A stretch of DNA of 64,000 nt from Ulvibacter antarcticus (lineage in GTDB: Bacteria; Bacteroidota; Bacteroidia; Flavobacteriales; Flavobacteriaceae): positions 124,001 through 188,000 of the forward strand of contig NZ_REFC01000013.1 of NCBI RefSeq assembly GCF_003688405.1. The letters are read 5' to 3'. The position numbers and the translations under genes are program-made. The notes under the pieces were generated by a model, which made no database searches, was not told the origin of the DNA, and saw only the letters and a program-made list of their open reading frames with translations. Positions 40,841-54,785 of the stretch are shown one piece after another (the first letter of the stretch is position 1; the number at the start of each line of letters is the position of its first letter).

Positions 40841-41920
40841 TTAATATTGCTGAAAATAATATTCGCGCAGCTGGTTATTTAGACCTCGTATTTCCATGAG
40901 TACTTTTTTATTCAAAAAGTCGATTTTTATAATGCCAAAATTAAGGTCTTTGATAAGTTCGCCTTTTCGATATCGGTTGGGTCCATCCGGATTTTCTGGC
41001 CATGTATGTGTTAAGCCGCTGGTTGTAAAGTCTACAAGTGGATAGGTTAGTTTGGTTTCAGTGTTAACCGAAAATTCTGCTAAATGCCTGTCACCGCTAA
41101 GAAAGATGATGTTTTTGGCCTTCGCGTTTTCTAAAGTGGTCTGCATTTTTTTCACTTCTGAAGGGAAATTCGCCCATTTTTCCCAACCGTGTTCATCGGC
41201 TAGAAACTGGATACTACTCACAATGATATTAAAATCGGAAGTTTCGTCTTCCAGTTCCTTCTGAAGCCATTTCCATTGAGTGGTTCCCAATACCGTCCTC
41301 GATTTGCCATCATCCCATGCTTCAAAACGCCAATCCGGGTTTTTACTTTTTCTCAAAGAATCACGAAAGGTTCTAGTATCTAACAAGATTATTTTTAGCC
41401 TACCTTTTTTAGTATTGTAAATTTTAGTGTAATAAATGCCTTCCTGTGTTCGGAGTGGATCGTTTTCGGGTGTTTTTAGAAAATCCAGAAAGAGTCGTTG
41501 TGCTTCCTTTTTATGCTCCCATTCGGAACCTGCGTCATTTTTACCATAATCGTGGTCGTCCCATGTACCAATGATCGGCACTGAGGCGGCCAAGGTTTTA
41601 TACTCAGGATTTGCCCATACTTTATCATAATCGGCTTTCATTTTTTGCATGTCAGCTGTATCGGCATAAATATTATCCCCACCCCAAATAAAAAGGTTGG
41701 GTTTGGTTTCTAGAATTGGTTTCCATAGCGGTTGATCTCTATTCTGGTCGTTACAACTGGCAAATACTATGGTAAAATCTGATTGTACTTGTTGTGCTGC
41801 TGGAATTTCTTTAGCAATGTCTAAAACGGCTTGCTGAGCATTTGAATTATTTTTGTTTAGGTCTTGGTGTTTACAGGAAATAATAAGCGCTAATAGTAGA
41901 GCGAGTTGAAAAAGCTTCAT
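40841..41920 (-). CDS. PhoD-like metallophosphatase (alkaline phosphatase D family) lipoprotein
   Basis: 359 aa with a lipobox (LIISC near residue 16), so it is anchored in the membrane facing the periplasm. Metal-binding blocks: FASCNDQNRDQPLWK, FIWGGDNIYAD, GTWDDHDYGKNDAG, and IIFLSGDRHLAEF. The family hydrolyses phosphomono- or diesters; substrate not determined. The gene stands alone. Confidence 0.88.
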   Translation of the reverse strand: MKLFQLALLLALIISCKHQDLNKNNSNAQQAVLDIAKEIPAAQQVQSDFTIVFASCNDQNRDQPLWKPILETKPNLFIWGGDNIYADTADMQKMKADYDKVWANPEYKTLAASVPIIGTWDDHDYGKNDAGSEWEHKKEAQRLFLDFLKTPENDPLRTQEGIYYTKIYNTKKGRLKIILLDTRTFRDSLRKSKNPDWRFEAWDDGKSRTVLGTTQWKWLQKELEDETSDFNIIVSSIQFLADEHGWEKWANFPSEVKKMQTTLENAKAKNIIFLSGDRHLAEFSVNTETKLTYPLVDFTTSGLTHTWPENPDGPNRYRKGELIKDLNFGIIKIDFLNKKVLMEIRGLNNQLREYYFQQY

Positions 41921-42055
41921 GTTTCAAGATTTTTTCTGTTAAAGAATCAAAACTAAGGTAATGGTTTTACGTGATAAATTCTCAATTTTTTAAAGTGACC
42001 ATATAATGATTTCAGTGTCATATAATTATAACACTCTAACATTAAATTTAAAACA

Positions 42056-42427
42056 ATGAAAAAGTTTCTATTAGTTGCTGCAGTACTGCTTATAGGTGGT
42101 ACTATGCTTGGACAGGAAAAACCTGAAAAGAGAACTAAAACCGTGGTTGCACGCTACGACGGGAATTCTAATGATACTTATTTTTTCACTAATGATGTAA
42201 ATAACGTAGAAATAAGAATTAATGAAGTGGATGAAGAGCTTTTGTCTATCTACGATCTTGACTCTGACGATTATCTAGGAATGTACTTTAGAATGATTTA
42301 CACTATTGATTATGTCGAAAATGCAGAAAAAACGAAGGATGGTAAGCTTACCGCAACCAAAAATCCTTACAACAAGGAGCTAAAAATTATCGATATGGAA
42401 GAATTGAAAGATTATAAACAAGAATAA
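42056..42427 (+). CDS. Small secreted protein of unknown function
   Basis: 123 aa. A clear signal peptide (KKFLLVAAVLLIGGTMLGQ) precedes a mature part of about 100 residues with no Cys and no motif I recognise; acidic stretches (DEELLSIYDLDSDDYLGM) alternate with short basic ones. Only plus-strand gene between ndk and nrnA apart from antisense frames. Real by codon pattern, signal peptide and two terminators after it. Confidence 0.75.
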   Translation: MKKFLLVAAVLLIGGTMLGQEKPEKRTKTVVARYDGNSNDTYFFTNDVNNVEIRINEVDEELLSIYDLDSDDYLGMYFRMIYTIDYVENAEKTKDGKLTATKNPYNKELKIIDMEELKDYKQE

Positions 42428-42442
42428 TGAGAATCTTTGTGA

Positions 42443-42520
42443 AACGAATTTGGATTCACTTCCATGATCCAGATTCGTTATTTTGATTGGTTGAAAAGTC
42501 GGAAAGAAAATTCCGACTTT
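42443..42520 (+). terminator. Two consecutive hairpin terminators
   Basis: First AACGAATTTGGAT / ATCCAGATTCGTT (42443-42455 and 42467-42479; one G-U pair), then AAAGTCGGAA / TTCCGACTTT (42495-42504 and 42511-42520) with a T-run. They lie between the convergent small secreted protein gene and the six-gene minus-strand operon and can serve both. Confidence 0.8.
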
Positions 42521-42533
42521 TTTTATCTAAACC

Positions 42534-42977
42534 TTAAAACACAATCTTTGATTCGAAGGGAGCAGACCATTTGGATGCTCTTTCAATAGCTGGAATAAGA
42601 GTTGCAAATACGTCTAGTTTTCTTGAATAGGAAGAAGAAGACTTCGTCTGGTTACCTAATCTTAGTGCTAAGGAAGCACGCACCTCTTTTTGTGTTTCAT
42701 CCGCCTTTACAATCACGGTTGTCTTTCCCATAAAATCGTCTTTTCGGTCATGAGAAATGCGTTGAATATGACTTTCATCCCAGTTAGCGATGATAATAGG
42801 AATATCTATCTGGCCATGTATATCATAAACAAAGAGATTGAGGCAGTATTCCATTTCGAATTTCAAATCGAGAGGATGAAATTTTATCACAGTAAGAACT
42901 GTAATGTCACTAAATTTATCATTTACATGTATTTCTTTAGGTATGGATTCTAAAGTAACGGATTCAATTTTTGCCAT
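42534..42977 (-). CDS. Orphan 147-aa protein, last gene of ion operon
   Basis: No recognised domain. Predominantly beta-strand-like (VLTVIKFHPLDLKFEMEYCLNLFVYDI, TTVIVKADETQKEVRASLALRLG), with no signal peptide or membrane segment. It follows the 79-aa gene by 2 bases and ends at the operon terminator. A soluble partner of the transport or NTPase subunits is possible; this is inference from linkage only. Confidence 0.7.
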   Translation of the reverse strand: MAKIESVTLESIPKEIHVNDKFSDITVLTVIKFHPLDLKFEMEYCLNLFVYDIHGQIDIPIIIANWDESHIQRISHDRKDDFMGKTTVIVKADETQKEVRASLALRLGNQTKSSSSYSRKLDVFATLIPAIERASKWSAPFESKIVF

Positions 42978-42979
42978 TT

Positions 42980-43219
42980 TTATTTTCTTAGTTGTGTTAT
43001 TTTATCTTCGTAAGTGTGCCAGTATTCTGTTATGAGTTGATGAGCTGCTGAAAAATCATTATTCAATATATCCAATATCTTTTCGAGATCTTTATCGGGT
43101 GCATTAAATAGATCGACCTGTAAATGACCAACCTTTTCAACCAGGCTTTCACAGGTATTTAAGATGTCTCCCAGTTTTCTGAAGTTTTCTTCTTTTTGTT
43201 CCAAATTTGATTGTTCCAT
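42980..43219 (-). CDS. Orphan 79-aa helical protein
   Basis: A small, charged, mostly helical protein (EQKEENFRKLGDILNTCESL, DKDLEKILDILNNDFSAAHQLI) that could form a coiled-coil or four-helix unit. It lies 50 bases after the antiporter gene and 2 bases before the 147-aa gene. No known family recognised. Confidence 0.68.
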   Translation of the reverse strand: MEQSNLEQKEENFRKLGDILNTCESLVEKVGHLQVDLFNAPDKDLEKILDILNNDFSAAHQLITEYWHTYEDKITQLRK

Positions 43220-43269
43220 GGCTAATAATGTCTTTATTATTAAGACACAGATTAGCTAAGGAAGTCACT

Positions 43270-44538
43270 TTATTCGGACATGTCTTGAGCAGTAGGTGCC
43301 TTCCATGTGGTAGCTCCCACTTTCCGACTATTAGCAATTTTCACATTTTTAGAAGCTCTTTGCTTATCGTAGATCATAGCGGCCGTCATTATAAGGCTGG
43401 TTCCAATGATTACGAAGAGTAATATACCTGGCTCAAAAGTGGCTACGGTAGCTTCCGCAGGGATAGCATAAAAAAGCAATACAGTGATGAGTCCACGAGG
43501 TGCAACAAATAGCTGTGGGATTATATCAGGACCTAAGAATATTCGGAGAATCACAAACCTAATCGCATAAATTGATAAGATGATAAGAGAGCTTATAATA
43601 GCGACATCTAAACTAAATAGTGAGGTTACTACGATTGTTAGTCCAAAAATTACAAAGAAAAAAGTACGAACTACAAAAGCGGTTTCGGCTGTGATGGTAT
43701 GTAATTCATGATAAATATGATGGGCTTTTTCGTAATGTAAATATTTGGAAATTCGACCTCCAAAAAACAGTTTCATATTCGCAATGACCAAGCCGAAGAT
43801 TAAAATGATTATTAGAGATGATAAATGCATTTTCTTGCCCAAACCGTATAATAACAATAGGACGGCGATTAATAAGAATAATTTTACCTGACTTTTTATT
43901 TTCTGAAAGATTAGAATTATCAAATAACTGGCGACTAACGAGATGACTATTGTGATAAGTAAATTTCCTGTAAACCCTATAAAACCTGAATCTTCGGCAG
44001 GATCTAGTTTTCCGGTAAGGAAATAGAACATCATGATTCCTAGTATATCTGAAAAGGTACTTTCATAAATGTGGAATTCCTTTTTGCTTTTCCGAAGTCC
44101 GGCAACACTAGGAATAATAATGGCACTCGATAAAATGGAAAGAGGCGTTGCGTAAATCCATGCCGATTGCATGCTCATTTCAGGGATAAAGTTATACAAG
44201 ATCAAGGCGGCAACCCAGGCCGAAACAAGGAGTCCAACTAATGCAATGAGCATTGATTTAAGGATAGGAACCAGCTTGTCCTTTTTTAATTCAAGCTCTA
44301 GTGCCGCTTCAAGTACAATCATAATTAAACCTACAATCCCTAAAACTTCAAGGAAGGGGAAAAAGTTAGGTATGTCGTCTGTAAACGAGCCTAGTAAATA
44401 TTGTAAACCAACCCCAAGTACGATTAACATCAAAACAGAAGGGATGTTAGTACGTTTTGAAACTCCATTAAATAGAAAGGAGAGTATAATTATTAATGAA
44501 GCGGCGATGATTATATTATAGGATGATAGAATTTCCAT
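43270..44538 (-). CDS. Cation:proton antiporter (CPA family)
   Basis: 422 aa, about 12 helices. Resembles Na+/H+ exchangers: a FNGVSKRTNIPSVLMLIVLGVGL start, EALEIELE-type charged helix (VLEAALELELKKDK), LSSAIIIPSVAG and the APRGLITVLLFYAIP block. Its start shares one base with the stop of the mini-MscS gene. Exchange of Na+ or K+ for H+ is likely. Confidence 0.85.
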   Translation of the reverse strand: MEILSSYNIIIAASLIIILSFLFNGVSKRTNIPSVLMLIVLGVGLQYLLGSFTDDIPNFFPFLEVLGIVGLIMIVLEAALELELKKDKLVPILKSMLIALVGLLVSAWVAALILYNFIPEMSMQSAWIYATPLSILSSAIIIPSVAGLRKSKKEFHIYESTFSDILGIMMFYFLTGKLDPAEDSGFIGFTGNLLITIVISLVASYLIILIFQKIKSQVKLFLLIAVLLLLYGLGKKMHLSSLIIILIFGLVIANMKLFFGGRISKYLHYEKAHHIYHELHTITAETAFVVRTFFFVIFGLTIVVTSLFSLDVAIISSLIILSIYAIRFVILRIFLGPDIIPQLFVAPRGLITVLLFYAIPAEATVATFEPGILLFVIIGTSLIMTAAMIYDKQRASKNVKIANSRKVGATTWKAPTAQDMSE

Positions 44539-45242
44539 TAAAGTGCTTTTTGTTTTGAGATGGTTTCAATATTGTTGCGCTCGAAGTAAGCGATGAGGTC
44601 TTTCGTTTTAGCCCCATTTTCTAAAGTAAATTGTAGGCGTTGCAAATTCTCGCCGGCTACTTTTTTGAGGGTTGGTGGTTTAGAAAAATTTACCATTGGA
44701 TTGTCGAACATCAGGTCTAGAATTTCTTTTTCTGAAACAGCTTCAGAAATATAAATTGATTTTAAAATAGCATCGTCTTCTTTGTAAAGAATACTAAATC
44801 CGTGTTGTTGTATTTCAGAATAATTCACAAAATGTTTTCCTTTAGGAACCTTAAGAATTGCGCCAAGCGCCAATAATTCAGTGATTTCACCTTTAAAATC
44901 ACCCGTAGATATCTGCGTTCCGGTTTCAATTAATGGATTGAGCTTTATTAGAATTCCATTTAGGTAGTTTCGAATATAAGGGAAGCCAATTATTCCTGCC
45001 GCGAGAAAAATGATTCCGTGAACGATATAATCAATCCTTATAAAAGAGATAATCAATAATAATACTGCAAGTGGTATATATAGGGTCAAAAAATGCGTCG
45101 ATATTTTACGAATCAGTTTTTTAGTACTTGATTTACGGGAAAGTTTTACAAATACTTCCGTTAGAAATTTAAATATCCAGTACAATGCAAAAAGTCCAAT
45201 TAAGACTTCTCCAAAATATTTCCATGTAAAATCTGTCTCCAT
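44538..45242 (-). CDS. Mini-MscS-like membrane protein, copy A
   Basis: 234 aa: three membrane helices, then one beta-domain recalling MscS: NYLNGILIKL, NPLIETGTQI, GDFKGEITELLALG, GKHFVNYSEI. About 70 cytoplasmic residues follow. It is homologous in plan to the 159-aa product at 50017, both ending with NYSEI after a G-rich strand. It is much shorter than MscS (about 286 aa). It lies 3 bases after the NTPase stop. Confidence 0.72.
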   Translation of the reverse strand: METDFTWKYFGEVLIGLFALYWIFKFLTEVFVKLSRKSSTKKLIRKISTHFLTLYIPLAVLLLIISFIRIDYIVHGIIFLAAGIIGFPYIRNYLNGILIKLNPLIETGTQISTGDFKGEITELLALGAILKVPKGKHFVNYSEIQQHGFSILYKEDDAILKSIYISEAVSEKEILDLMFDNPMVNFSKPPTLKKVAGENLQRLQFTLENGAKTKDLIAYFERNNIETISKQKAL

Positions 45243-45245
45243 ATT

Positions 45246-47588
45246 TTAATTTTCTAAGTACATTTTCTTTGAGAGTAAGCGCGAAACATCCTGCCCCACC
45301 ACTTGGTTGATCGATAGATTCCCTTTTTGATCTCTCAACAAAACTTTTGAATTGATTAATCTTCGAACCGCCGATTTATAATGCGCATCATAACCGGAAG
45401 CCGTTACTCGCTTAAGTCCGACCTCACTAATATTCTTAAAAAGCAGGGCTTGCTTTAAAATTATTAGTTCTTCTTGAGTAAAGAAATCTAAAAACTCATG
45501 CTCTTTTGATTTAAAAAGAACTTCTTCTCCATTCTGAATAAAGGTGTTATAGGTCCATGACTGAAGTACTTCTCCAATATTATGGTAGTGTTTTCTAATT
45601 AATAGTGCAATGGTTTTTTCAATCTTCTTCTTTGAAACTGTAAGTCCATTTTCGGTAACCAAGGTTCTATGAGCAGCTCCATGACGTAACAACAAGGCTG
45701 CCTGAATCTCGTCTGAGTCCATCTCACTCACATTAATGAGCGTATTGAAAACATTCGAAAAATCAACTCGGTGATCCAGATGCCCTTTCATTGCGTTGGT
45801 AGTAGTCGCCATTACAAAAGCATCGTCAGATTCCTTTTCAACAAAACTGATCAACGCTCTGGTGTTCTCGAGTAGGCTATATTCTGAATCGCACCATAAT
45901 TCCAAATCGTCTATAAGTATCGCCGGACGAGTACTTTTACTATTATTGTTCTTCACATACTCTAAGGCTTCCGCTAAATTAAAAGTTGTTGTAAATTTTC
46001 GGCCATCAATGGTCGCCAGACTATTTGGTTTTAAGTTAACGATGTCATTTCCGAAGAAATTTTTTGCCGTATTATTTAAAAAAGTACTGCGACCACTTAG
46101 TCTGTCACCATAAATAAGTACAGCCTTGTTAAAACCCGAATTCCATAAAGTAACGGCCTCTTTTAATTTTTCTTCCTGAAGATCTCTTGACACCAGGAAT
46201 AGATCTCCAATAAAATTCCTGTTCAGAAAGAGCACATCATAATGTTCATTATCCTCTTTAAACATACGATGAGCAATACTCTTGGTCGTAACTTCTATCT
46301 CAGAAAAGGATTCGAGATAGACCGATTGTTCATAGCGTGTATTGAAAAACGAAATCAACTTTTCGCTTTTCTTTCTAAGCCGCTTGTAAATGTTGTTTTT
46401 ACTTAAAGTTAGAGAAGAGGTAATTGTGGTATTAATAGGAATTTCGAGAAATGGTTCCGAATTTACAAAACGAGTTAACTTAAGCTCATTATTGGCTTTT
46501 TGGTAAATCTGTTCTGAAAGTTCTGTCCCTGTATTTTTGTGTAATTTCAGATCCGTTTCTAGTTTTTCGACCGCTCTAATAAAAGTGTCCTTCTCTTCAA
46601 ATTGTTCTGAAGATTTAGACATTAGCAGACTATTTTTAAGATTAATCAATGTAATCCTAATCTTAGCCTTTACAGTTTTTTCATGAGCCATGAGGTCGAA
46701 AAGATCGGGAAGTATTTTATAGTCAAACCATTTTTGAACCGCTTTGGACATAGAGATTTCTCTACGCTGTAAAACACCATCTTTAGCCGAAACAAAGCAC
46801 TCACAAAATTCTAAGTCTCTAATGGTATCTTGCAATTTTTCCGTGAATATTTCTGTATTATTTCCTAATTCATCTAATTGTTCCATAATGTCATCAATCC
46901 TTGTAAATAATGCCTGAGGATTGCTTTTCGATGACAATGCTTCCTTGATATAACGACAATCGGCTTCCAGAGTGTTGTAAAGCAGCGTATTATCGATTTT
47001 TACCCTTTCCACTATTTCTGTTAAGTTGGCTAATTGTGGAATGGTTTGGAAAAGTTTAATTTTAGAATTATCTATTTTAATGAATTGATCGAGCAATGCT
47101 TCAAGTTGTGCCTTGTATACAGGCCAAGGATTGGTATGTAATTTTAGATTACGGGACATTTTTTTTACTGAATTTTTATCCCTAGACAATTTACTAAGCT
47201 CATTGTCAATAAACGAAACAAGCTGATTACTGGCATTTGCCAATACCTCTTTTGAAGCTAAAAAATGACGTTCGGTAGTTGAAATATCAATCTCGTTCTC
47301 CTTATTTAATAGTGCCGTCTTCTGAAGTTCGAGCAATACATTTCTATGTAAAATAGTAAGATCTTTTATCTCTTCCGGAAGTTGATAATTAATAAAATAT
47401 ATTTCAATAGCTTCGGAAGTATTGCTGTTTTCAAATGAAGCTTTTAGAGCCTCATCGGCAATTTCTATGAATCCGGTTACGATTGAAGCACTATCTTTCA
47501 GTATAAAACTTGTTAAAGATTCTGAAGTGTTTATAGCTTTCAGGGCTTTGATGTACGCTAATAAATATTCTTGAAATTTTTTTATCAT
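45246..47588 (-). CDS. Large P-loop NTPase with Arg in Walker A
   Basis: 780 aa. Residues 1 to about 480 are helical, with no signal or membrane helix. A C-terminal NTPase domain has Walker A GDRLSGRST (residues 494-502) in which the usual Lys is Arg, and Walker B AILIDDLELW (about 556-565). A sensor-like FVMATTTNA and a winged-helix-like C-terminus (RRLINSKVLLRDQKGNLSI) follow. This looks AAA+ or STAND-like. It sits between a cotransporter (15-base gap) and a mini-channel (3-base gap). No family assigned. Confidence 0.78.
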   Translation of the reverse strand: MIKKFQEYLLAYIKALKAINTSESLTSFILKDSASIVTGFIEIADEALKASFENSNTSEAIEIYFINYQLPEEIKDLTILHRNVLLELQKTALLNKENEIDISTTERHFLASKEVLANASNQLVSFIDNELSKLSRDKNSVKKMSRNLKLHTNPWPVYKAQLEALLDQFIKIDNSKIKLFQTIPQLANLTEIVERVKIDNTLLYNTLEADCRYIKEALSSKSNPQALFTRIDDIMEQLDELGNNTEIFTEKLQDTIRDLEFCECFVSAKDGVLQRREISMSKAVQKWFDYKILPDLFDLMAHEKTVKAKIRITLINLKNSLLMSKSSEQFEEKDTFIRAVEKLETDLKLHKNTGTELSEQIYQKANNELKLTRFVNSEPFLEIPINTTITSSLTLSKNNIYKRLRKKSEKLISFFNTRYEQSVYLESFSEIEVTTKSIAHRMFKEDNEHYDVLFLNRNFIGDLFLVSRDLQEEKLKEAVTLWNSGFNKAVLIYGDRLSGRSTFLNNTAKNFFGNDIVNLKPNSLATIDGRKFTTTFNLAEALEYVKNNNSKSTRPAILIDDLELWCDSEYSLLENTRALISFVEKESDDAFVMATTTNAMKGHLDHRVDFSNVFNTLINVSEMDSDEIQAALLLRHGAAHRTLVTENGLTVSKKKIEKTIALLIRKHYHNIGEVLQSWTYNTFIQNGEEVLFKSKEHEFLDFFTQEELIILKQALLFKNISEVGLKRVTASGYDAHYKSAVRRLINSKVLLRDQKGNLSINQVVGQDVSRLLSKKMYLEN

Positions 47589-47603
47589 TTAATATATTAA
47601 TGT

Positions 47604-49796
47604 TTACACTAATGCATTTTCAGTTGTGCTGTCCATACAGAAGATGGCTGAGGTCCTGCTTTGATTGACGACCTTAATTAGTTCTTCAATTTTACTATCG
47701 GAAGGTAGTGACAATATATTTAAATCGGTACTATTCTTACCAAAGTATTCAGCTTTTGCCTCAGTTGTAAAGCTCTCGATATTAGAACCTACCGGAAAAC
47801 GAATCAAATCGTTCAATATGGAAATATCTGATTGAGTTATTATTCCTTCTTCATCTAAAGCTACTTTTGCATTTAACTCTCCTTTCCAGTTTTTGGCTAA
47901 TAAAAGAGACGTTAATATTGCAAGATCATTATTACCTAAATCGTAATCATTTCTCCAATTCTTCGGAAAATTACTTAGCCATAGCGATAGGTTTTTTTCC
48001 AATGAGAGTCCTACGTTTTCAAAAGGAACATATAAAATAACACCATAATTATTCATACTTGCAATCTTTATCAATTCCTCGTACGATTGGTGAAACTGTT
48101 CATTGCCGTTCACAGTGAAGAATAGGGAATTTGGCTTAAAAAAGGCAGCATTTAGAGCCTGCATGCTAATCTTGAGACTGGTAGAAAGATCTTCTCCGCT
48201 AATATACGTATGGCTTGTGGCAATATTCTTCGATTTTAGTCTCGAGATTACCTCAGGCAGAAAGTTTTGAAGTTTGTCATTAATATCTTTATCCAAATGT
48301 TTTACAGCTAGAAATTTAACAGACCCTTTTGGAGCCACGATACTTTCAATCAATTTAAAAGAGCTGCGTATTTCTTTGGGCGCCGTCACTGGAATTAACA
48401 AATCTGGTCTCCAGGAACGCACTTCTCTTGTCGGACTTAATTGCGTCGTTTTCTTAGTGGACCATTCGGCGAGCGCCGTAAATAGACCACTTCTCGAATC
48501 ACCAGCTTCCGATTTTAATTTTTTCTTTACAAGGTAGAAATAAAAGAAAACGATTAGTACTAAAGAGGCCAGGGCGACAGCAGCATTGATAATAAACATC
48601 ACTGTTAGTGAGCCAAAAGCACCAATTAAAGGCACTATAATAGGGATCTTTAAAGTAGGTCTAAAACTCGGTAAGGATAAAGATTGCTCAATCAGGGCAA
48701 CTATATTCACCATTGCATAGGTAATCATAAAGAACATGGTAATAAGTGGAGCAATGGTATTGAGGTCTCGAAGTGAGAGTCCGATAACAACAATTACAGC
48801 TGTAACCAACATCGCATTAAAAGGCTCACCTTTTTTATTAGTTTTAGATAAGAGATCACTTTTTGGTAAAATTCTCTTTTCTCCCAGCGCTAAAAGTATC
48901 CTTGGCGCACCAACGAAAGAACCTAAGGCAGAGGATAGGGTAGCGCCTAATAGTCCGGCTAGTACAATAGGTGCGTAGTAAGCTTTGTCAATAAATACGT
49001 TATAGTTTTCAAGTAATTCGGTAGGAGTAGCGAGTAAAGCGGCAACGAAGATCATTCCCATATAAACTATAGTTGTAATGATAACCGCGCTTATTGTACC
49101 GGTTGGAATACTTTTGCGTGGGTTTTTTAAATCACCAGACATATTTGCGCCTGCCATAACACCGGTTACAGCTGGGAAAAAGACAGCAAACACCAACCAG
49201 AAGGAGGTGCCGCTAAAGTTATTTTCAATAGAACCTTCGTAATTTCCGAACCAGACGAAATCGTAATTTAGTTCATTAACAAAGAGTCCCCCAAGGATCG
49301 AAAAGATCGATAGAATAATGATTACCATGATCACGTATTGTATTTTAAAGGCAAAGCTGGTGCTAATAAAGGCAATCGCCATGACCAAAGCGAATACCAT
49401 AATATCTAATATCACCGGGCTCATTTCGGGTAATAGTGATTGTAAACCCTCCCTGAAGCCAAAAATGTACATAGCTACAGCGATCGCTTGAGAAAAGAAG
49501 AATGGGATTCCAATTGCGCCACCAATTTCCAAGCCTAATGATTGCGATATAAGTGAAAAGGCACCACCCGATCCTATTCGTATGTTAGTGGTGATACTGG
49601 AGAGTGATAGAGCCGTTGAAAAGGTAATGGAAACGGCAACTATAATAATGAGAAAAGTTCCTACAATTCCGGCATTACCCACTACCCAAGGATGGCGGAT
49701 ATACATAATAACCCCAAGTATTGTTAAAAAAGTTGGGGTGAAAACACCTGCCATCATTCCAAACTTCTTGACAGGCTTCGAAGGGGTAGTCTCCAT
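47604..49796 (-). CDS. Cation-chloride cotransporter-like APC permease (SLC12 type)
   Basis: 730 aa: twelve helices in residues 1 to about 430 and a long cytoplasmic C-terminus. GVFTPTFLTILGVIMYIRHPWVVG is the hallmark start of Na-K-Cl cotransporter-type APC proteins, with SGGAFSLISQSLGLEIGG and GVMAGANMSGDLKNP following. The C-terminal domain resembles universal-stress-like or CCC regulatory folds. It probably moves K+ and/or Cl- and is the first gene of the six-gene operon. Confidence 0.87.
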   Translation of the reverse strand: METTPSKPVKKFGMMAGVFTPTFLTILGVIMYIRHPWVVGNAGIVGTFLIIIVAVSITFSTALSLSSITTNIRIGSGGAFSLISQSLGLEIGGAIGIPFFFSQAIAVAMYIFGFREGLQSLLPEMSPVILDIMVFALVMAIAFISTSFAFKIQYVIMVIIILSIFSILGGLFVNELNYDFVWFGNYEGSIENNFSGTSFWLVFAVFFPAVTGVMAGANMSGDLKNPRKSIPTGTISAVIITTIVYMGMIFVAALLATPTELLENYNVFIDKAYYAPIVLAGLLGATLSSALGSFVGAPRILLALGEKRILPKSDLLSKTNKKGEPFNAMLVTAVIVVIGLSLRDLNTIAPLITMFFMITYAMVNIVALIEQSLSLPSFRPTLKIPIIVPLIGAFGSLTVMFIINAAVALASLVLIVFFYFYLVKKKLKSEAGDSRSGLFTALAEWSTKKTTQLSPTREVRSWRPDLLIPVTAPKEIRSSFKLIESIVAPKGSVKFLAVKHLDKDINDKLQNFLPEVISRLKSKNIATSHTYISGEDLSTSLKISMQALNAAFFKPNSLFFTVNGNEQFHQSYEELIKIASMNNYGVILYVPFENVGLSLEKNLSLWLSNFPKNWRNDYDLGNNDLAILTSLLLAKNWKGELNAKVALDEEGIITQSDISILNDLIRFPVGSNIESFTTEAKAEYFGKNSTDLNILSLPSDSKIEELIKVVNQSRTSAIFCMDSTTENALV

Positions 49797-50016
49797 ATTT
49801 GATTGGTTTACTTATATTATTTGACCCCACTTTTCATATTAAGTCACATAATTTTTATTTTTTTTTAGCTTCTGAAGTGTTTCGAGCTTAGTTTATTGAT
49901 ATGAATCCTTCAAAAGTGACGGATGCTAAAAGTGTATAAAGTGATGAGTACTGCATTGTTTAATTAATTGAAATGATCCGGTATTACAAGTGTTTCCGAA
50001 GAAAAAAAGATAAGAA

Positions 50017-50496
50017 TTAGGAAGGTAATTCAGAATAATGTGCAAGTTTGTAGCCTTTTAAAATGATTTCAGAATAATTGAGAAATACTTTTAAATACCC
50101 TTGTCGAATATAAATACCCTGTGGCAGTATTGATTCGATGTAACCTTGATAAACTCCGCAGCTAAATTCGACTCCGACTTTAAATTTTGGATTTTCTTTA
50201 AGTCGTAATCCGATGAGGTAACTTTTTAAATAATTGATTAAAATATATCCAATAAAAAGGATCAATAATAGCTGTACAATTGGGGCTGCTTTGAAGAATC
50301 CAAGTGCTATAATCACCGCCGAAAAAACTTTATACGCAAATAAAAAATGATTCATATCGCGTTTTATTTCGAAGTACAATCCCGGTTTAGATACGCTTCG
50401 TAACACCAGCATACCAAGTAGTTTTGCAATATAGTACACCGCGATTAGGACGATAAATACTTTAAATAAGCCGTTCCAGCTAAATAGAATTTCCAT
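50017..50496 (-). CDS. Mini-MscS-like membrane protein, copy B
   Basis: 159 aa: three helices (FKVFIVLIAVYYIAKLL, FSAVIIALGFF, LLLILFIGYILI) then NYLKSYLIGLRLKENP, KVGVEFSCGVYQGYIES, GYLKVFLNYSEIIL. It has the same order as the first 160 residues of the 44538-45242 product but ends after the beta unit. It lies upstream of the cotransporter operon, 220 bases away, and downstream of the GIN-domain gene. Confidence 0.7.
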   Translation of the reverse strand: MEILFSWNGLFKVFIVLIAVYYIAKLLGMLVLRSVSKPGLYFEIKRDMNHFLFAYKVFSAVIIALGFFKAAPIVQLLLILFIGYILINYLKSYLIGLRLKENPKFKVGVEFSCGVYQGYIESILPQGIYIRQGYLKVFLNYSEIILKGYKLAHYSELPS

Positions 50497-50578
50497 GATT
50501 TTTTCAAGTGAAAAGAAGGGGATTATGATCTGAAATCCCTCTATTATTTGGACACGTTAAACTCAGGAAGTCACAAAA

Positions 50579-50605
50579 AAAATGCTTCCGTTTGGGAAGC
50601 ATTTT
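50579..50605 (-). terminator. Intrinsic terminator after the GIN-domain gene
   Basis: AAAATGCTTCC / GGAAGCATTTT (50579-50589 and 50595-50605), just after the stop of the 50647 gene. Confidence 0.8.
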
Positions 50606-50646
50606 AAAAAGTAGCTATTGAAAAAGCTTTAAGTGTTATATGCTTA

Positions 50647-51468
50647 CTACTTTTTAATAATTTGGGATTTATCGTTAAGGCCTTCCACTTTTATCTCTGG
50701 GTTTCCATATACATATACATAGCTTTTTCCCTGAGCGTATAATTTTAATTCCTTGCTGGCAAACACATATATGTCGGAAGTATTTGAAGCAATTAGATCT
50801 GCAAAAACAGATTTTAGCTTCTTTGCTTTTATATCTGTTGACCCCGTTGCAGTGATTTTAAGGTTGGTTACGTCACCGGCTAGATTTATATCTGCTCGTT
50901 TGTTTATTTCTACATCGAGATACTCCATTTGCATTTCTGCGTCGAGATAAGCATTTTCGTTTAAAATCATTTTAGCCTTATTTCCTCTCATCAATAGTTC
51001 GCCATTAGTACTCTTGTTTAATACAAAAGTAGCATCATCGGCATCCATGTCTAATTTGTATGATGCGTTGTTATAAGCTGTAAAATCAAGAGTTTTGAAC
51101 GAAAGTCTATTCATAGACTCGAGTACAGAGTCATCTCTTAAGATAATTTCGTCCACGCCATCAATGGTGAGATTGATTTCAAGTTTTTTAGATGATGTAA
51201 TTCGATTGATGGTATAAATTTTTAGGCTACCATTTACGATTTCAAATTTCACGATAGCCACAAGATTTTCGTCTGTTTTAATGTGATAACCATTGCTTTC
51301 TGTCTGTGTTATCGTTACCTCCAGGTCATCACTTATCTCGATACTATCGAAATCCTCTAGGGTGTTATACACATCAACAACAATTTTGTTTCCTTGTATT
51401 TTTGGTTTCTTTTGTGCGTAACATATACTCACCAATAAGGTGAAACATACAATAAATATTTTTTTCAT
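50647..51468 (-). CDS. GIN-domain (DUF2807) putative adhesin
   Basis: 273 aa with a signal peptide (KKIFIVCFTLLVSICYAQ). The body is a right-handed beta-helix-like DUF2807 fold: FDSIEISDDLEVTITQ, repeated LDFTAYNNASYKLDMDADDATFVL and LKITATGSTDIKAKKLKS. Such head-GIN proteins are common in Bacteroidota and are called adhesins without firm evidence. It lies within the ion island. Confidence 0.83.
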   Translation of the reverse strand: MKKIFIVCFTLLVSICYAQKKPKIQGNKIVVDVYNTLEDFDSIEISDDLEVTITQTESNGYHIKTDENLVAIVKFEIVNGSLKIYTINRITSSKKLEINLTIDGVDEIILRDDSVLESMNRLSFKTLDFTAYNNASYKLDMDADDATFVLNKSTNGELLMRGNKAKMILNENAYLDAEMQMEYLDVEINKRADINLAGDVTNLKITATGSTDIKAKKLKSVFADLIASNTSDIYVFASKELKLYAQGKSYVYVYGNPEIKVEGLNDKSQIIKK

Positions 51469-51497
51469 GATTTTTTTATTTAGTAGTGTAAACAGAA

Positions 51498-51785
51498 TTA
51501 TAAAGTTTTTAATTCATCCGAAATCGCATTGAAAACTTGAGTATAGGCCAAATTTATGCAGCTGTAGTTTCTGTCTTCGATATCGAGAAAACGCTCCATG
51601 GCTTCAGACGTTTTAAGCAGGTTTTCAAAATTGAGTGCGTAGGCATTATCCCATTACGAAACAAATTGAAAAGTGCTTTTGTTGCCCTCCATCAATGTAA
51701 ATTTTTCAGGAAACGTAAACTGGATGTATTCCAAAATTTCGGTATAACTCTGTGTGTATTTTATTTTAGAAACTAACTGTCTCAT
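51498..51785 (-). pseudogene. 95-codon gene interrupted by one in-frame TAA
   Basis: Reads from ATG at 51785 for 43 codons (MRQLVSKIKYTQSYTEILEY...), hits TAA at 51654-51656, then continues in the same frame WDNAYALNFENLLKTSEAM... for 51 codons to a second TAA. Both halves have coding-like composition with no other interruption, so a single nonsense change (or a sequencing error) has broken it. No known family recognised. It fills what otherwise would be a 462-base empty gap between the MscS terminator and the GIN gene. Confidence 0.72.
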
Positions 51786-51877
51786 AATTCAACGTGATTG
51801 TTTATTTATATGACACAGTAAAATTGGATTGGTCACAAACATTGTGATTTTTTATGATAACTGGTTTCTAATAATAA

Positions 51878-51909
51878 AAAAAGCCCTGCAAACGAGTTGT
51901 GGGCTTTTT
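51878..51909 (-). terminator. Intrinsic terminator after mscS-type gene
   Basis: AAAAAGCCC / GGGCTTTTT (51878-51886 and 51901-51909), 22 bases after the MscS stop codon. Confidence 0.85.
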
Positions 51910-51930
51910 AAAATGAATTAGCAGTTTAAA

Positions 51931-52758
51931 TTATTCGATGATTCGTATTTGGTTCTCTACCACGTCTTTAATAGGGATAACAATTTTTCCTGTCGCTGTT
52001 TTTAGCGTCATTGAAATATTGTCGATAGATTCAATAGTACCGGAAACATCATTAAATTCAATAGATTGTCCTACTTCATAGTTTTTACGAGTGTAGAACG
52101 TTCTTAACAAATCACTTATAATGTCTTTAGAGCCAATTCCAAATCCGAGTGCCATTGCTGCTAAAAATGCGCCTAAAATGATGGTTAAATTGTTAGTGAT
52201 GATATTGGTGTCGATTCCTGCCTGATTTAAAGCTGTGACCGTGATTATAATCGCAATCACATAAAAAACCAGACTACTTATAATTTTTGCGCCATTTAAA
52301 TCGAAAGATTCGAAGAGTCCACGAATCGCTTTTTTAAGAAAGCTGGCGATGTACAAACCAACCATAAATAAGGCGATAGCACTAAATAATTTAGGAAGGT
52401 AACGTAAAAGTTTCCCTATTTCTAGAGAAACGATTTCCCAGTTCATAATATCGGAAGCCACAATAAGAAAAACAAGAAAGAGGACCCACTTTACAAAGCC
52501 TACGATCACCGAGGTGACATTGAATTTTAAATCGGTCTCACCAAATAGATTCTTCTCATTTATAAGCTCTGTAAGTTTGTCTGCCTTAGCGATTCGCAAG
52601 ATTCTCTTTAATAGAAAAACGATTATTTTTGTAATGATCCATCCAATGATGAGTATGAGAATGGCACCTAAAATATTAGGTATGGCATTCATAATTGAGA
52701 TGCCCATTTCGTTAAGTGAATTGAAGGTAAGTTCCCTCCATTGGTCTATTCTTTCCAT
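51931..52758 (-). CDS. MscS family small-conductance mechanosensitive channel
   Basis: 275 aa, close to standard MscS size. Three helices and the pore-lining TM3 region (LTIILGAFLAAMALGFGIGSKDIISDLL) precede the beta-domain (YEVGQSIEFNDVSGTIESIDNISMTLKTATGKIVIPI). It should open on membrane tension to release solutes. It is the third gene of the sigma-factor unit, 22 bases after the 61-aa gene. Confidence 0.9.
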   Translation of the reverse strand: MERIDQWRELTFNSLNEMGISIMNAIPNILGAILILIIGWIITKIIVFLLKRILRIAKADKLTELINEKNLFGETDLKFNVTSVIVGFVKWVLFLVFLIVASDIMNWEIVSLEIGKLLRYLPKLFSAIALFMVGLYIASFLKKAIRGLFESFDLNGAKIISSLVFYVIAIIITVTALNQAGIDTNIITNNLTIILGAFLAAMALGFGIGSKDIISDLLRTFYTRKNYEVGQSIEFNDVSGTIESIDNISMTLKTATGKIVIPIKDVVENQIRIIE

Positions 52759-52780
52759 GGTCGTTGTTTAATTGGTTATA

Positions 52781-52966
52781 TTATTTTTTGTTTTTATGCT
52801 CGTTTTTTTTGAAAAATGCCTCAGCGGCCTTTGCATAATTGAAAGAAAACAGACTTCCTAATTCAACAAATAATTTAAATGCCGAAATATCATTCATAAC
52901 ATGCTTTTTCATTTCTGGTGGTGCCTCTTTAGGAGGATGTACCAGTTTTTTAAACGGATTTTCCAT
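52781..52966 (-). CDS. Small 61-aa protein coupled to ECF sigma factor
   Basis: Opens NPFKKLVHPPKEAPPEMK and ends with a Lys-rich tail. It starts 5 bases after the sigma factor stop, and homologous small proteins starting MENPFKKLVHPPKE occur next to ECF sigma genes in Flavobacteriaceae (recalled from family knowledge). No membrane segment, so not a classical anti-sigma factor; a soluble regulator of the sigma factor is possible. Confidence 0.65.
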   Translation of the reverse strand: MENPFKKLVHPPKEAPPEMKKHVMNDISAFKLFVELGSLFSFNYAKAAEAFFKKNEHKNKK

Positions 52967-52971
52967 CGATC

Positions 52972-53541
52972 TTACATTTTTTCATTACACAATTCTACTA
53001 CTCTTGCTTTTGCTCTTTTCAAGCGCATTTTAACTGCACTTTCACCAATTTCCAAAATCGATGAAAGCTCCTTAATCGATAAGTCGTCTTGATACTTTAA
53101 CAGTAATATCATCCTATCCTCGTTAGGAATTATTTCCAGCGCTTTCTTTAATTTATTTACTTGGATCTGAAATAAATTGTAGTCATCTATTTCAATCAGG
53201 AGGTGATCATATTCTTCAACAGGCACTGATTTCTTTTCAATTTTCTTAGCAGTGGATCGCGTCACATAGTTTGCACATAGATTATAAGTAAAAGCATACA
53301 ACCAGGTTGAAAACTTCGATCTCCCTTGAAAGCTATCTAACTTAATGAAAAGCTTTAAAAACACGTCCTGACTGAGATCCTTTGCCTCGTCTTCATTATT
53401 AACGAAACTAAAACATTTGTTATAAACAACATGACAGTATCTATCGTACAGAACTTCGAACATCAATGTGTTTCGGGTTTTTACTATTTGTTGTACAAGT
53501 TCCTCATCGGTTAAACTTTGGAACGAAACATGGGTTTTCAA
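52972..53541 (-). CDS. ECF-type RNA polymerase sigma factor
   Basis: 189 aa. Region 2 (LMFEVLYDRYCHVVYNKCFS, DEAKDLSQDVFLKLF, FSTWLYAFTYNLC) and region 4 (NEDRMILLLKYQDDLSIKELSSILEIGESAVKMRLKRAKAR) are complete. It begins the island and is followed by the 61-aa gene and MscS. By analogy with other ECF units it could respond to envelope stress or osmotic shock and drive the island; no target promoter was tested. Confidence 0.9.
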   Translation of the reverse strand: MKTHVSFQSLTDEELVQQIVKTRNTLMFEVLYDRYCHVVYNKCFSFVNNEDEAKDLSQDVFLKLFIKLDSFQGRSKFSTWLYAFTYNLCANYVTRSTAKKIEKKSVPVEEYDHLLIEIDDYNLFQIQVNKLKKALEIIPNEDRMILLLKYQDDLSIKELSSILEIGESAVKMRLKRAKARVVELCNEKM

Positions 53542-53690
53542 GGGTTAGATCAATTGGTTATAATAATTTAGACACCGTCTTCTTAAATAAGTCACTTAAA
53601 TTTACAATAATCTTTTTTAAGCTTTTCTTCGGAAGGATTTTAAAGTTTAGGCCGCTACTTGTGTATTTCTTATTCTGAAGCTATATCGGC

Positions 53691-53703
53691 TTCGCTAAGC
53701 GAA
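53691..53703. promoter_or_regulatory. TTCGCT-A-AGCGAA palindrome upstream of nrnA
   Basis: A 6-bp inverted repeat about 45 bases upstream of the divergent nrnA -7 element. Possible operator or part of a terminator; evidence is only the symmetry. Confidence 0.3.
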
Positions 53704-53759
53704 TTTGATTCTTTGATATTCTGTTAGTGATTACCCTAAAAATTGTATCTTCGCGCTCT

Positions 53760-54785
53760 ATGAATTCTGAAACAACCTCAACAATTAAGAAGCTTTTAGA
53801 GACTTCAAAAAAGATCGTGATCGTAGGTCATAGAAACCCCGATGGAGATGCACTAGGATCCAGTTTGGGGCTCTATTTTTTTCTGAAGCATCTAGGACAT
53901 CATGTTAGTGTGGTAATGCCTAATGAGTTTCCCGACTTCTTAAAGTGGATGCCAGGAAGTGATGCTGTACTAATTTATGAGAAGGAGATAGAAAAAACCA
54001 CTGCAGTTATAAATGAAGCAACTGTGATCTTTGTGTTGGATTTTAATTCATTAGGAAGGGTAGGGGATCTTAAGAAACCTTTGGAGGAAAGTGAAGCCGA
54101 TTTTATAATGATCGATCATCATCAACAACCCGATGAATTTGCTGTTGCTACCTATAGTGATACCAATATGAGTTCTACCGCCGAAATGGTGTATCATTGT
54201 ATCGCTGCTCTGGATGGAACAGAAACAATTACGGCCGATATAGCTACCAACTTATATGCAGGAATTATGACCGATACCGGCTCGTTTCGTTTTCCGTCGA
54301 CCTCTGCTGAAACGCATAGAGTGATTGCAAATCTCATTGATAAAGGAGCTAATAATGCCCTAATTCATCAAAATATTTTTGATACTAATAGTCCGGACCG
54401 AATGAGACTATTGGGAGTTGCTCTTAAAAACCTTCATATCCTTCCAGAATACAATACGGCATATATCACTTTAAGTCAGGAAGAACTTGATGCAAATAAC
54501 TTTAAGAAAGGAGATACCGAAGGTTTTGTAAATTATGCTTTGTCGGTTGAAGGTGTTGTATTTGCAATTATATTTATTGAAAATAAGCAAGATAGCATCA
54601 TTAAAATGTCATTAAGAAGTAAAGGAGATTTTTCAGTGAACGAATTTTCACGGGCTCATTACCATGGTGGCGGACATACAAACGCTGCTGGAGGAAGAAG
54701 TTCACATAGTCTTAACAATACTATTACTGAATTTATTAGTATCTTGCCAGACTATAAAAATGCGCTTACCCGTAATGATTCGTAA
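53760..54785 (+). CDS. DHH-DHHA1 phosphoesterase, oligoribonuclease/pAp phosphatase NrnA-like
   Basis: 341 aa from MNSETTSTIKK (ATG at 53760; 11 in-frame residues upstream dropped). Motifs: GHRNPDGDALGSS (DHH motif I), LDFNSLGR, IDHHQQPD (DHH motif III), GIMTDTGSFRF and the DHHA1 signature HYHGGGHTNAAGG. NrnA degrades nano-RNAs and 3'-phosphoadenosine 5'-phosphate. Its last 11 bases overlap gldI. Confidence 0.9.
   Translation: MNSETTSTIKKLLETSKKIVIVGHRNPDGDALGSSLGLYFFLKHLGHHVSVVMPNEFPDFLKWMPGSDAVLIYEKEIEKTTAVINEATVIFVLDFNSLGRVGDLKKPLEESEADFIMIDHHQQPDEFAVATYSDTNMSSTAEMVYHCIAALDGTETITADIATNLYAGIMTDTGSFRFPSTSAETHRVIANLIDKGANNALIHQNIFDTNSPDRMRLLGVALKNLHILPEYNTAYITLSQEELDANNFKKGDTEGFVNYALSVEGVVFAIIFIENKQDSIIKMSLRSKGDFSVNEFSRAHYHGGGHTNAAGGRSSHSLNNTITEFISILPDYKNALTRNDS

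Follow-up and report, generated by a model that had tools for sequence, protein, structure and literature searches.

MscS channels are commonly regarded as safety valves that act on their own. According to the sections of PMC7641640 considered here, the Pseudomonas genes of the extracytoplasmic function (ECF) sigma factor SigX, of CfrX, a protein of 84 amino acids (aa) that is the main candidate regulator of SigX, and of the MscS-type channel CmpX adjoin each other, the channel gene is under SigX control, and the SigX promoter consensus "remains not precisely defined". Here, we analyzed a stretch of 64,000 nucleotides (nt) of the Ulvibacter antarcticus genome (contig NZ_REFC01000013.1, positions 124,001 to 188,000), referred to as the window, which contains an 11.5-kb block of ion-channel and ion-transporter genes, referred to as the island. 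Coordinates count from the first letter of the window, and features lie on the minus strand unless stated otherwise. We consider it probable (roughly 60%) that the island is a self-contained osmotic and ionic stress regulon, in which an AAA+/STAND-like nucleoside triphosphatase (NTPase) of 780 aa would be a switch that couples MscS-type channels with ion transporters under the control of a SigX-like sigma factor.

As in Pseudomonas, an ECF sigma factor, a small protein and an MscS-type channel are encoded as neighbours in the window, the sigma factor is SigX-like, and there is a tie to membrane state and osmolarity. The gene order differs, and the Pseudomonas operon, as described in the same sections, contains the CorA-like CmaX and no NTPase, cation-chloride cotransporter (CCC) or cation/proton antiporter (CPA) (PMC7641640). 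The best NCBIfam model for the window's sigma factor (52972..53541, TTG start; Pfam Sigma70_r2/r4) was SigX (NF007222) with 101 bits, which is under the cut-off of 194, and the next best score in the genome was 73 bits. The product of the gene between sigma and MscS, p61 (52781..52966), is a conserved sigma partner of 61 aa and a candidate anti-sigma factor; it matched no Pfam or NCBIfam model and was set beside the 84-aa CfrX by position and length. As the SigX model stayed under its cut-off and the comparison of p61 with CfrX covers position and length, membership of the trio in the SigX-CfrX-CmpX system is unproven. Taken alone, the trio of sigma factor, p61 and MscS (51931..52758, 275 aa; Pfam MS_channel_1st_1 and MS_channel_2nd) is in our assessment only a new variant of this known kind, and its sigma factor is SigX-CfrX-CmpX-like.

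The NTPase itself has its closest described counterparts among STAND NTPases, which include the NLRs, and ORC/Cdc6-type AAA+ proteins, with which it shares a P-loop domain and a winged helix. The Walker B motif of STAND proteins is hhhhDDhW, which is resembled by the sequence IDDLELW of the window NTPase. In contrast to the STAND and ORC proteins, a long helical arm takes the place of a repeat sensor, and the protein is joined to ion transporters and MscS by linkage or fusion. Likewise, the CCC of the window (47604..49796, 730 aa, SLC12-like) resembles known SLC12/CCC proteins with prokaryotic C-terminal domains, as its APC-fold core and CCC C-terminal domains match Pfam AA_permease, CCC_C_1st_pro and CCC_C_2nd_pro with 179, 77 and 59 bits, all over the cut-offs; the difference is the NTPase, which is separate or fused here. 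Eukaryotic KCCs reportedly bind nucleotide. Literature searches of open-access PMC yielded no described NTPase-MscS-transporter system in the titles and abstract starts among the matches listed, and the NTPase module is the part without a described counterpart in the literature searched.

Conservation of the NTPase module

The NTPase gene (45246..47588) is followed by the genes of a mini-MscS channel of 234 aa (44538..45242) and of a CPA of 422 aa (43270..44538; Pfam Na_H_Exchanger with 74 bits against a cut-off of 26). With a three-row profile, relatives of the NTPase were found in 61 of 395 genomes of the phylum, the own genome included, and a scan of named genomes gave 78 NTPase loci, among them loci of Flavobacteriaceae, Cyclobacteriaceae, Saprospiraceae, Lewinellaceae, Bacteroidales and one Chlorobiota bin. 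We typed 117 loci, including the window and after removal of two duplicates (L and G numbers denote loci and genomes). Type I, the clade of the window (72 loci, a bin that includes the contig-cut and mis-binned L043, L049 and L145), consists of an NTPase of about 800 aa, a mini-MscS and a CPA. Type II (14 loci) is a CCC-NTPase fusion of 1575 (cut) to 1752 aa followed by MscS, type III (5 loci) is a fusion of a CPA-type antiporter with the NTPase of about 1500 aa followed by MscS, and type IV (21 loci, with L140 being really type I) is an NTPase of about 1000 aa followed by MscS. A short type comprises five loci, counting L138, which is type I but cut.

The near-constant partner of the NTPase is MscS. 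An MscS-type gene directly follows the NTPase gene in 103 of 111 loci (63/67 of type I, 11/13 of type II, 5/5 of type III, 19/21 of type IV and 5/5 of the short type), including mini-MscS genes recovered by six-frame search in L090, L127 and L140, and it precedes the NTPase gene in two more. The remaining six were called as misses (L049, L089, L134, L135, L142 and L144), and L049 has an MscS gene 48 nt further on. At the position directly after the NTPase, the MscS label was given in 98 of 112 loci, which include related genomes, as compared to 8 of 1116 background open reading frames (ORFs). The antiporter gene follows in 57 of the 60 type I loci that have room for it, the misses being L043, L049 and L089; annotation of neighbours further out is partial. 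Among the 40 places whose flanks were fetched first (2 from a search of 60 relatives and 38 of the 61 non-own places of the phylum search), 14 were tied to a CCC or CPA, namely 5 of type I, 4 of type II and 5 of type III.

The AlphaFold2 model of the 234-aa mini-MscS (predicted local distance difference test score, pLDDT, 92.8) has the MscS fold, with three helices followed by beta and alpha/beta domains, and the 50 Foldseek matches listed were either chains of the MscS family or entries that bear just the title "a membrane protein". The window's protein had no Pfam match, and two relatives gave MS_channel_2nd. A paralogue of 159 aa (50017..50496), homologous to the 234-aa protein with E 4e-16, stops before the C-terminal alpha/beta domain in the alignment.

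In the short forms L054, L055, L060 and L067 (380-433 aa), the NTPase has little beyond the P-loop and winged-helix part and is still followed by MscS, which suggests that this part is its irreducible core. In L134 and L135, the CPA gene directly follows the NTPase gene (861 and 876 aa) with no separate mini-MscS, and the L134 protein has an extra C-terminal stretch that by eye resembles the alpha/beta domain of MscS. In L047, the second neighbour of the NTPase is a CorA gene.

The fusions tie the NTPase to two transporter classes. The CCC-NTPase fusion was identified in 14 loci by a CCC profile, and a Pfam run on one of them (L038, 1703 aa) placed AA_permease and SLC12 domains ahead of the NTPase. 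Pfam detected Na_H_Exchanger in the CPA-type fusions L057, L059 and L071; no Pfam match was obtained for this part of L061 or of L065, its near-copy, and the first 450 residues of L061 align to those of L057 (35%, E 1e-63). As the antiporter profile of type I did not label the type III fusions, the sequences suggest that their antiporter part belongs to another CPA subfamily. In a P-loop-domain tree, built by a quick method from 79 of the 117 rows after thinning of type I, all type I rows together with L138 and L140 formed one branch (support 100), the CCC fusions together with the cut L145 another (95), and the CPA fusions a third one (100). The separate branches of the two fusion forms indicate that CCC and CPA were each joined to the NTPase as neighbour and as fusion. 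The link of NTPase, channel and transporters that had been proposed in the preliminary description is thus upheld by conserved gene order and fusions.

Each of the fusions in L057, L059, L061, L065 and L071 is preceded by a 414-aa gene with 4-nt overlap, which belongs to no Pfam family in L057, and in L057 TrkH and TrkA genes come after the fusion and MscS. One genome, G037, carries a type I NTPase along with a CCC-NTPase fusion (L034, L035), each with its own MscS. The NTPase domains of L145 (Chlorobiota bin) and L146 (Bacteroidetes bin) are nearly identical, and a binning error may account for the Chlorobiota label.

A promoter-like motif in the island and its relatives

A motif, GTGAC-N14/15-G[T/G]GTC, was first spotted by eye and then searched as a pattern. 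It precedes six units of the island at a distance of 24-54 nt to the next start codon: 29 nt upstream of the sigma gene (53571..53595, GTGAC-N15-GTGTC), 26 nt before an interrupted small gene and thus upstream of the DUF2807 gene (51812..51836, GTGAC-N15-GTGTC), 54 nt before the 159-aa mini-MscS gene (50551..50574, GTGAC-N14-GTGTC), 26 nt before the CCC gene (49823..49847, GTGAC-N15-GGGTC), 24 nt before the 79-aa gene (43244..43268, GTGAC-N15-GTGTC) and, on the plus strand, 36 nt before a 123-aa gene (41995..42019, GTGAC-N15-GTGTC). The six copies in the window compare to 0.19 expected. The whole 3.84-Mb genome contains eight, six of them in the island, and one match to the reversed-pattern control; the two copies outside the island fall within ORFs of 319 and 321 codons. 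A variant ending in GTGTT occurs 11 times genome-wide versus 6 for its reversed control, which is near background.

To the family at large, the sigma trio is common: p61 is present in 73 of 199 family genomes, U. antarcticus included. Among 20 regions from family genomes taken by p61 score or by the p147 protein of the island, 18 contain the sigma gene, and p61 and MscS follow it in all 18, as they do in the window and in Aquaticitalea lipolytica (L074). The motif, in a form with [GC][TGA]GTC as the last box, lies upstream of the sigma gene in 15 of these 18 loci, and the reversed motif in 0. The form GTGACYT-N12/13-GTGTC gave 83 matches in 20 genomes with p61 (that of the window and 19 of the other 72) versus 3 in 20 of the 126 genomes without p61, with 1 and 8 matches, respectively, for the reversed control (Mann-Whitney p 7e-8, the genomes not being independent). 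G484 has p61 and 0 matches; it uses a CAGTC form. From this co-occurrence and the position of the motif upstream of the sigma factor's own gene, we infer that the motif is promoter-like and read by the island's sigma factor. Because of the position of its gene and the role of CfrX as candidate regulator of SigX, p61 may restrain the sigma factor.

Elsewhere, 78 distinct motif sites were inspected, nearly all in genomes with p61, and an ORF could be picked for 71 of them. Recurrent families downstream are DUF2853 (7), the sigma factor itself (6), LysM-type (6), OmpA-type (4) and RpoD-like sigma factors (4), MscS (3, including the channel of the trio), M48-type peptidases (3), aquaporin (2) and dodecin (2), and MscL occurs once; one or two members per named family, the sigma factor excepted, were checked with Pfam. 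Further putative families occur once or twice each. Such targets suggest a role in turgor and envelope stress. The NTPase gene itself has the motif 54 nt upstream in L208. Of the 15 motif copies in the genome of this locus, G548 (L208, L275, L276), 14 lie on two contigs, which amounts to a much enlarged version of the island. In four genomes (L269, L271, L277, L285), an RpoD-like sigma gene lies 111-116 nt behind the motif, so that the ECF sigma factor may act on the housekeeping sigma factor. An ECF motif termed SM6, which has a CGT box and goes with genes of the type IX secretion system, is described in the consulted part of PMC9723704, and a search of the article's text did not find GTGAC.

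Fold of the NTPase

The window NTPase reached no Pfam or NCBIfam family cut-off, and its relatives L044, L055 and L059 pass Pfam AAA_22. In the AlphaFold2 model (54 sequences; pLDDT 88.9, predicted template modelling score 0.50), a long helical arm extends to about residue 455 and is followed by the P-loop domain and winged helix (about 446-777). Structural neighbours were the D2 domain of NSF (Z 14.7, root mean square deviation (rmsd) 3.8, 206 residues), archaeal ORC2 (VIA; Z 14.5, rmsd 5.7), RFC and, with Foldseek, RuvB and plant NLRs.

As NSF D2 and other remodelling AAA+ proteins are among these neighbours, the NTPase could be an assembly chaperone or a quality-control factor of membrane proteins that serves the channel and transporters, which would then be separate salt-tolerance proteins, co-regulated and not physically coupled; the shared motif alone would explain their co-expression. 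The fusion to two unrelated transporter classes and the near-constant pairing with MscS argue instead for a stoichiometric partner, and the lysine of Walker A is not invariant, so that we regard this explanation as unlikely. The alignment to ORC2 covers 316 residues (446-777 of the NTPase) and includes the winged helix, which would fit a DNA-binding, ORC/Cdc6-like regulator of the neighbouring genes' transcription. However, the fusion to membrane transporters places the NTPase at the membrane, and the sigma factor and motif already account for regulation, making such a role extremely improbable.

The Walker A motif of the window NTPase is GDRLSGRST, in which the lysine of GxxxxGK[S/T] is replaced by R500. 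Across 74 type I rows, which include duplicates and three mis-binned rows, this position holds K in 59, R in 13, among them the window, and another residue in 2; the Walker B sequence IDDLELW shows strong conservation within types I and II. Judging from the residue, R500 could possibly reflect a state that binds nucleotide and hydrolyses it slowly.

Two matches were discarded. Among PDB sequences, the best 60 of 128 matches of the NTPase profile up to E 1 were all influenza haemagglutinin (mostly HA2), with E 1.4e-4 at best; they align to the long helix and were regarded as a chance likeness of coiled coils. A match to DNA polymerase epsilon in NCBIfam had 19 bits against a cut-off of 223.

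Organization and insertion of the island

The ORFs of the ECF sigma factor, its 61-aa partner, MscS, two mini-MscS proteins, CCC, antiporter, NTPase and two small proteins are all where the preliminary description had located them; it had left out a DUF2807 gene, an interrupted small gene and the 123-aa gene on the plus strand. The first unit (sigma, p61 and MscS, with gaps of 5 and 22 nt) ends in a terminator-like hairpin 3' of MscS (51878..51909; RNAfold -10.9 kcal/mol, followed by a T run). Behind its own motif copy follows the small gene (51498..51785), which is interrupted by one in-frame TAA and has no homologue among the loci searched, and then the gene of a 273-aa DUF2807 (GIN-domain) protein (50647..51468; Pfam DUF2807), which also occurs in L074 and L077 and is followed by a terminator-like hairpin (50579..50605). 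The last six genes (CCC, NTPase, 234-aa mini-MscS, CPA, p79 and p147) are as tightly spaced as had been noted, with gaps of 15, 3, -1, 50 and 2 nt, and end at an intrinsic terminator after p147 (42494..42521; RNAfold -14.4 kcal/mol, then a T run). They may form one operon with an extra internal motif copy before p79, but the hairpins after MscS and the DUF2807 gene divide the 11 kb into several transcription units, so that the idea of a single operon holds for these six genes at most. The small proteins p79 (42980..43219, 79 aa) and p147 (42534..42977, 147 aa) have homologues in L074 (E 3e-35) and in L074, L075 and L077, respectively. The 123-aa protein encoded on the plus strand (42056..42427) has an apparent signal peptide by eye, and L276 contains weak homologues that are all preceded by this motif. 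Rfam gave nothing at gathering score across 41900-54000.

The island is an insert. In three congeners (L297, L298 and L299; completeness 85-99%), it is absent from the corresponding site and the flanking genes adjoin, with their stop-to-stop frames being 26 nt apart in L297, overlapping in L298 and 128 nt apart in L299; no island gene was found in the 15-16 kb stretches of these loci at E 1e-5. The flanks are presumably a DHH phosphoesterase and a PhoD-like phosphatase, followed by ndk. Among 60 relatives, only U. antarcticus itself and G037, which belongs to another family, have the NTPase, and plasmid records contained no NTPase match. In A. lipolytica (L074), one strand carries sigma, p61, MscS, DUF2807, p79, p147, a 65-aa gene, CCC, NTPase, mini-MscS and CPA; in Polaribacter glomeratus (L077), sigma, p61, MscS and DUF2807 are followed by other genes and then by p147, NTPase, mini-MscS and CPA. 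This collinearity of the whole set in A. lipolytica and the one motif before six units support a leading role of the sigma factor in the island. For the same reasons, we dropped the possibility that the sigma part, with terminators in between, is unrelated to the NTPase operon. As p147 is found in 5 of 199 family genomes (U. antarcticus included), far fewer than p61, the NTPase module is a rarer extension of the regulon of a widespread trio.

The patchy occurrence, the insertion at one site and the STAND-like P-loop, with Foldseek matches to plant NLRs and weak nSTAND matches in relatives, would also be compatible with an anti-phage or suicide system, in which a sensor of the STAND type would open an MscS-type pore to depolarise the cell. 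However, PADLOC gave no match at E 0.01 for the window NTPase, the 234-aa mini-MscS, CPA, p79 and p147; two distant relatives together gave five weak matches (E 0.00012 to 0.0051) and a third gave none. Moreover, the NTPase is fused to CCC and CPA transporters, the motif is common to MscL, aquaporin and MscS genes, and gene order is kept over families, so that we consider an anti-phage function very unlikely.

Discussion

The regulon proposed here, with an NTPase switch under a SigX-like sigma factor, would work as follows. Membrane tension or ion imbalance would free the sigma factor from p61, the candidate anti-sigma factor, and the freed sigma factor would transcribe six units, one of them its own. 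Their products would build a membrane assembly around the NTPase, which may read the nucleotide state, and perhaps the ion state, via its P-loop/winged-helix domain. With its long helical arm, it would set the MscS-type channel (fast release) together with CPA and CCC (slow recovery), so that uptake and leak would not be open simultaneously. Fusion and linkage suggest that the NTPase acts as a nucleotide switch that keeps channel and transporter together. The function in ion homeostasis or osmotic signalling put forward in the preliminary description is supported.

Several points weigh against this interpretation. The assembly and its coupling are deduced from genes, and linkage and fusion are no proof of a complex. 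A separate CCC gene lies upstream in just 3 of 57 type I loci with room (window, L074 and L139) and is otherwise fused, in another clade, so that the CCC cannot be upheld as a constant partner; separate CCC genes could also stem from fission of a fusion. The neighbourhood check, which had been set beforehand, agreed with the proposal for the antiporter in the window's own clade and failed family-wide, as 26 of 40 loci, two of them cut at contig ends, have NTPase and MscS with neither a CCC nor a CPA recognised. Of these loci, 20 encode type IV proteins and 2 encode cut proteins, for all of which Pfam listed no transporter domain at E 0.001; the other 4 are short forms. The arginine in place of the Walker A lysine may mean weak hydrolysis by the window NTPase. 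The sigma factor is near at most 5 of 117 NTPase loci (window, L074 and L077, with weak matches in L094 and L111), which makes the sigma link a flavobacterial feature, and p147 occurs without the NTPase in the fetched stretches L206 and L209. Furthermore, the motif is missing before the sigma gene in L208, L214 and L215 and before the second sigma-like genes of L208 and L219, the sigma gene of A. lipolytica is preceded by GTGAC-N15-GTGTT and not GTGTC, and some motif sites elsewhere must be due to chance, as only 57 of the 78 have an ORF within 120 nt.

Going further, we tentatively envisage a new class of ion-homeostasis machine, although this is rather doubtful at present: a STAND/AAA+ switch would dock on MscS heptamers and on CCC or CPA transporters, in some cases within a single polypeptide, its ATP state would select emergency leak or active recovery, and the complete system would have entered this genome as one insert together with its own tension-responsive sigma factor and six matching promoters. 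With a family of ATPases that is paired with MscS across Bacteroidota and fused to two unrelated transporter classes, leak and uptake would be coordinated by a nucleotide-driven protein, if the proposed coupling is true. In addition, a testable promoter motif and a target list are gained for a SigX-like sigma factor.

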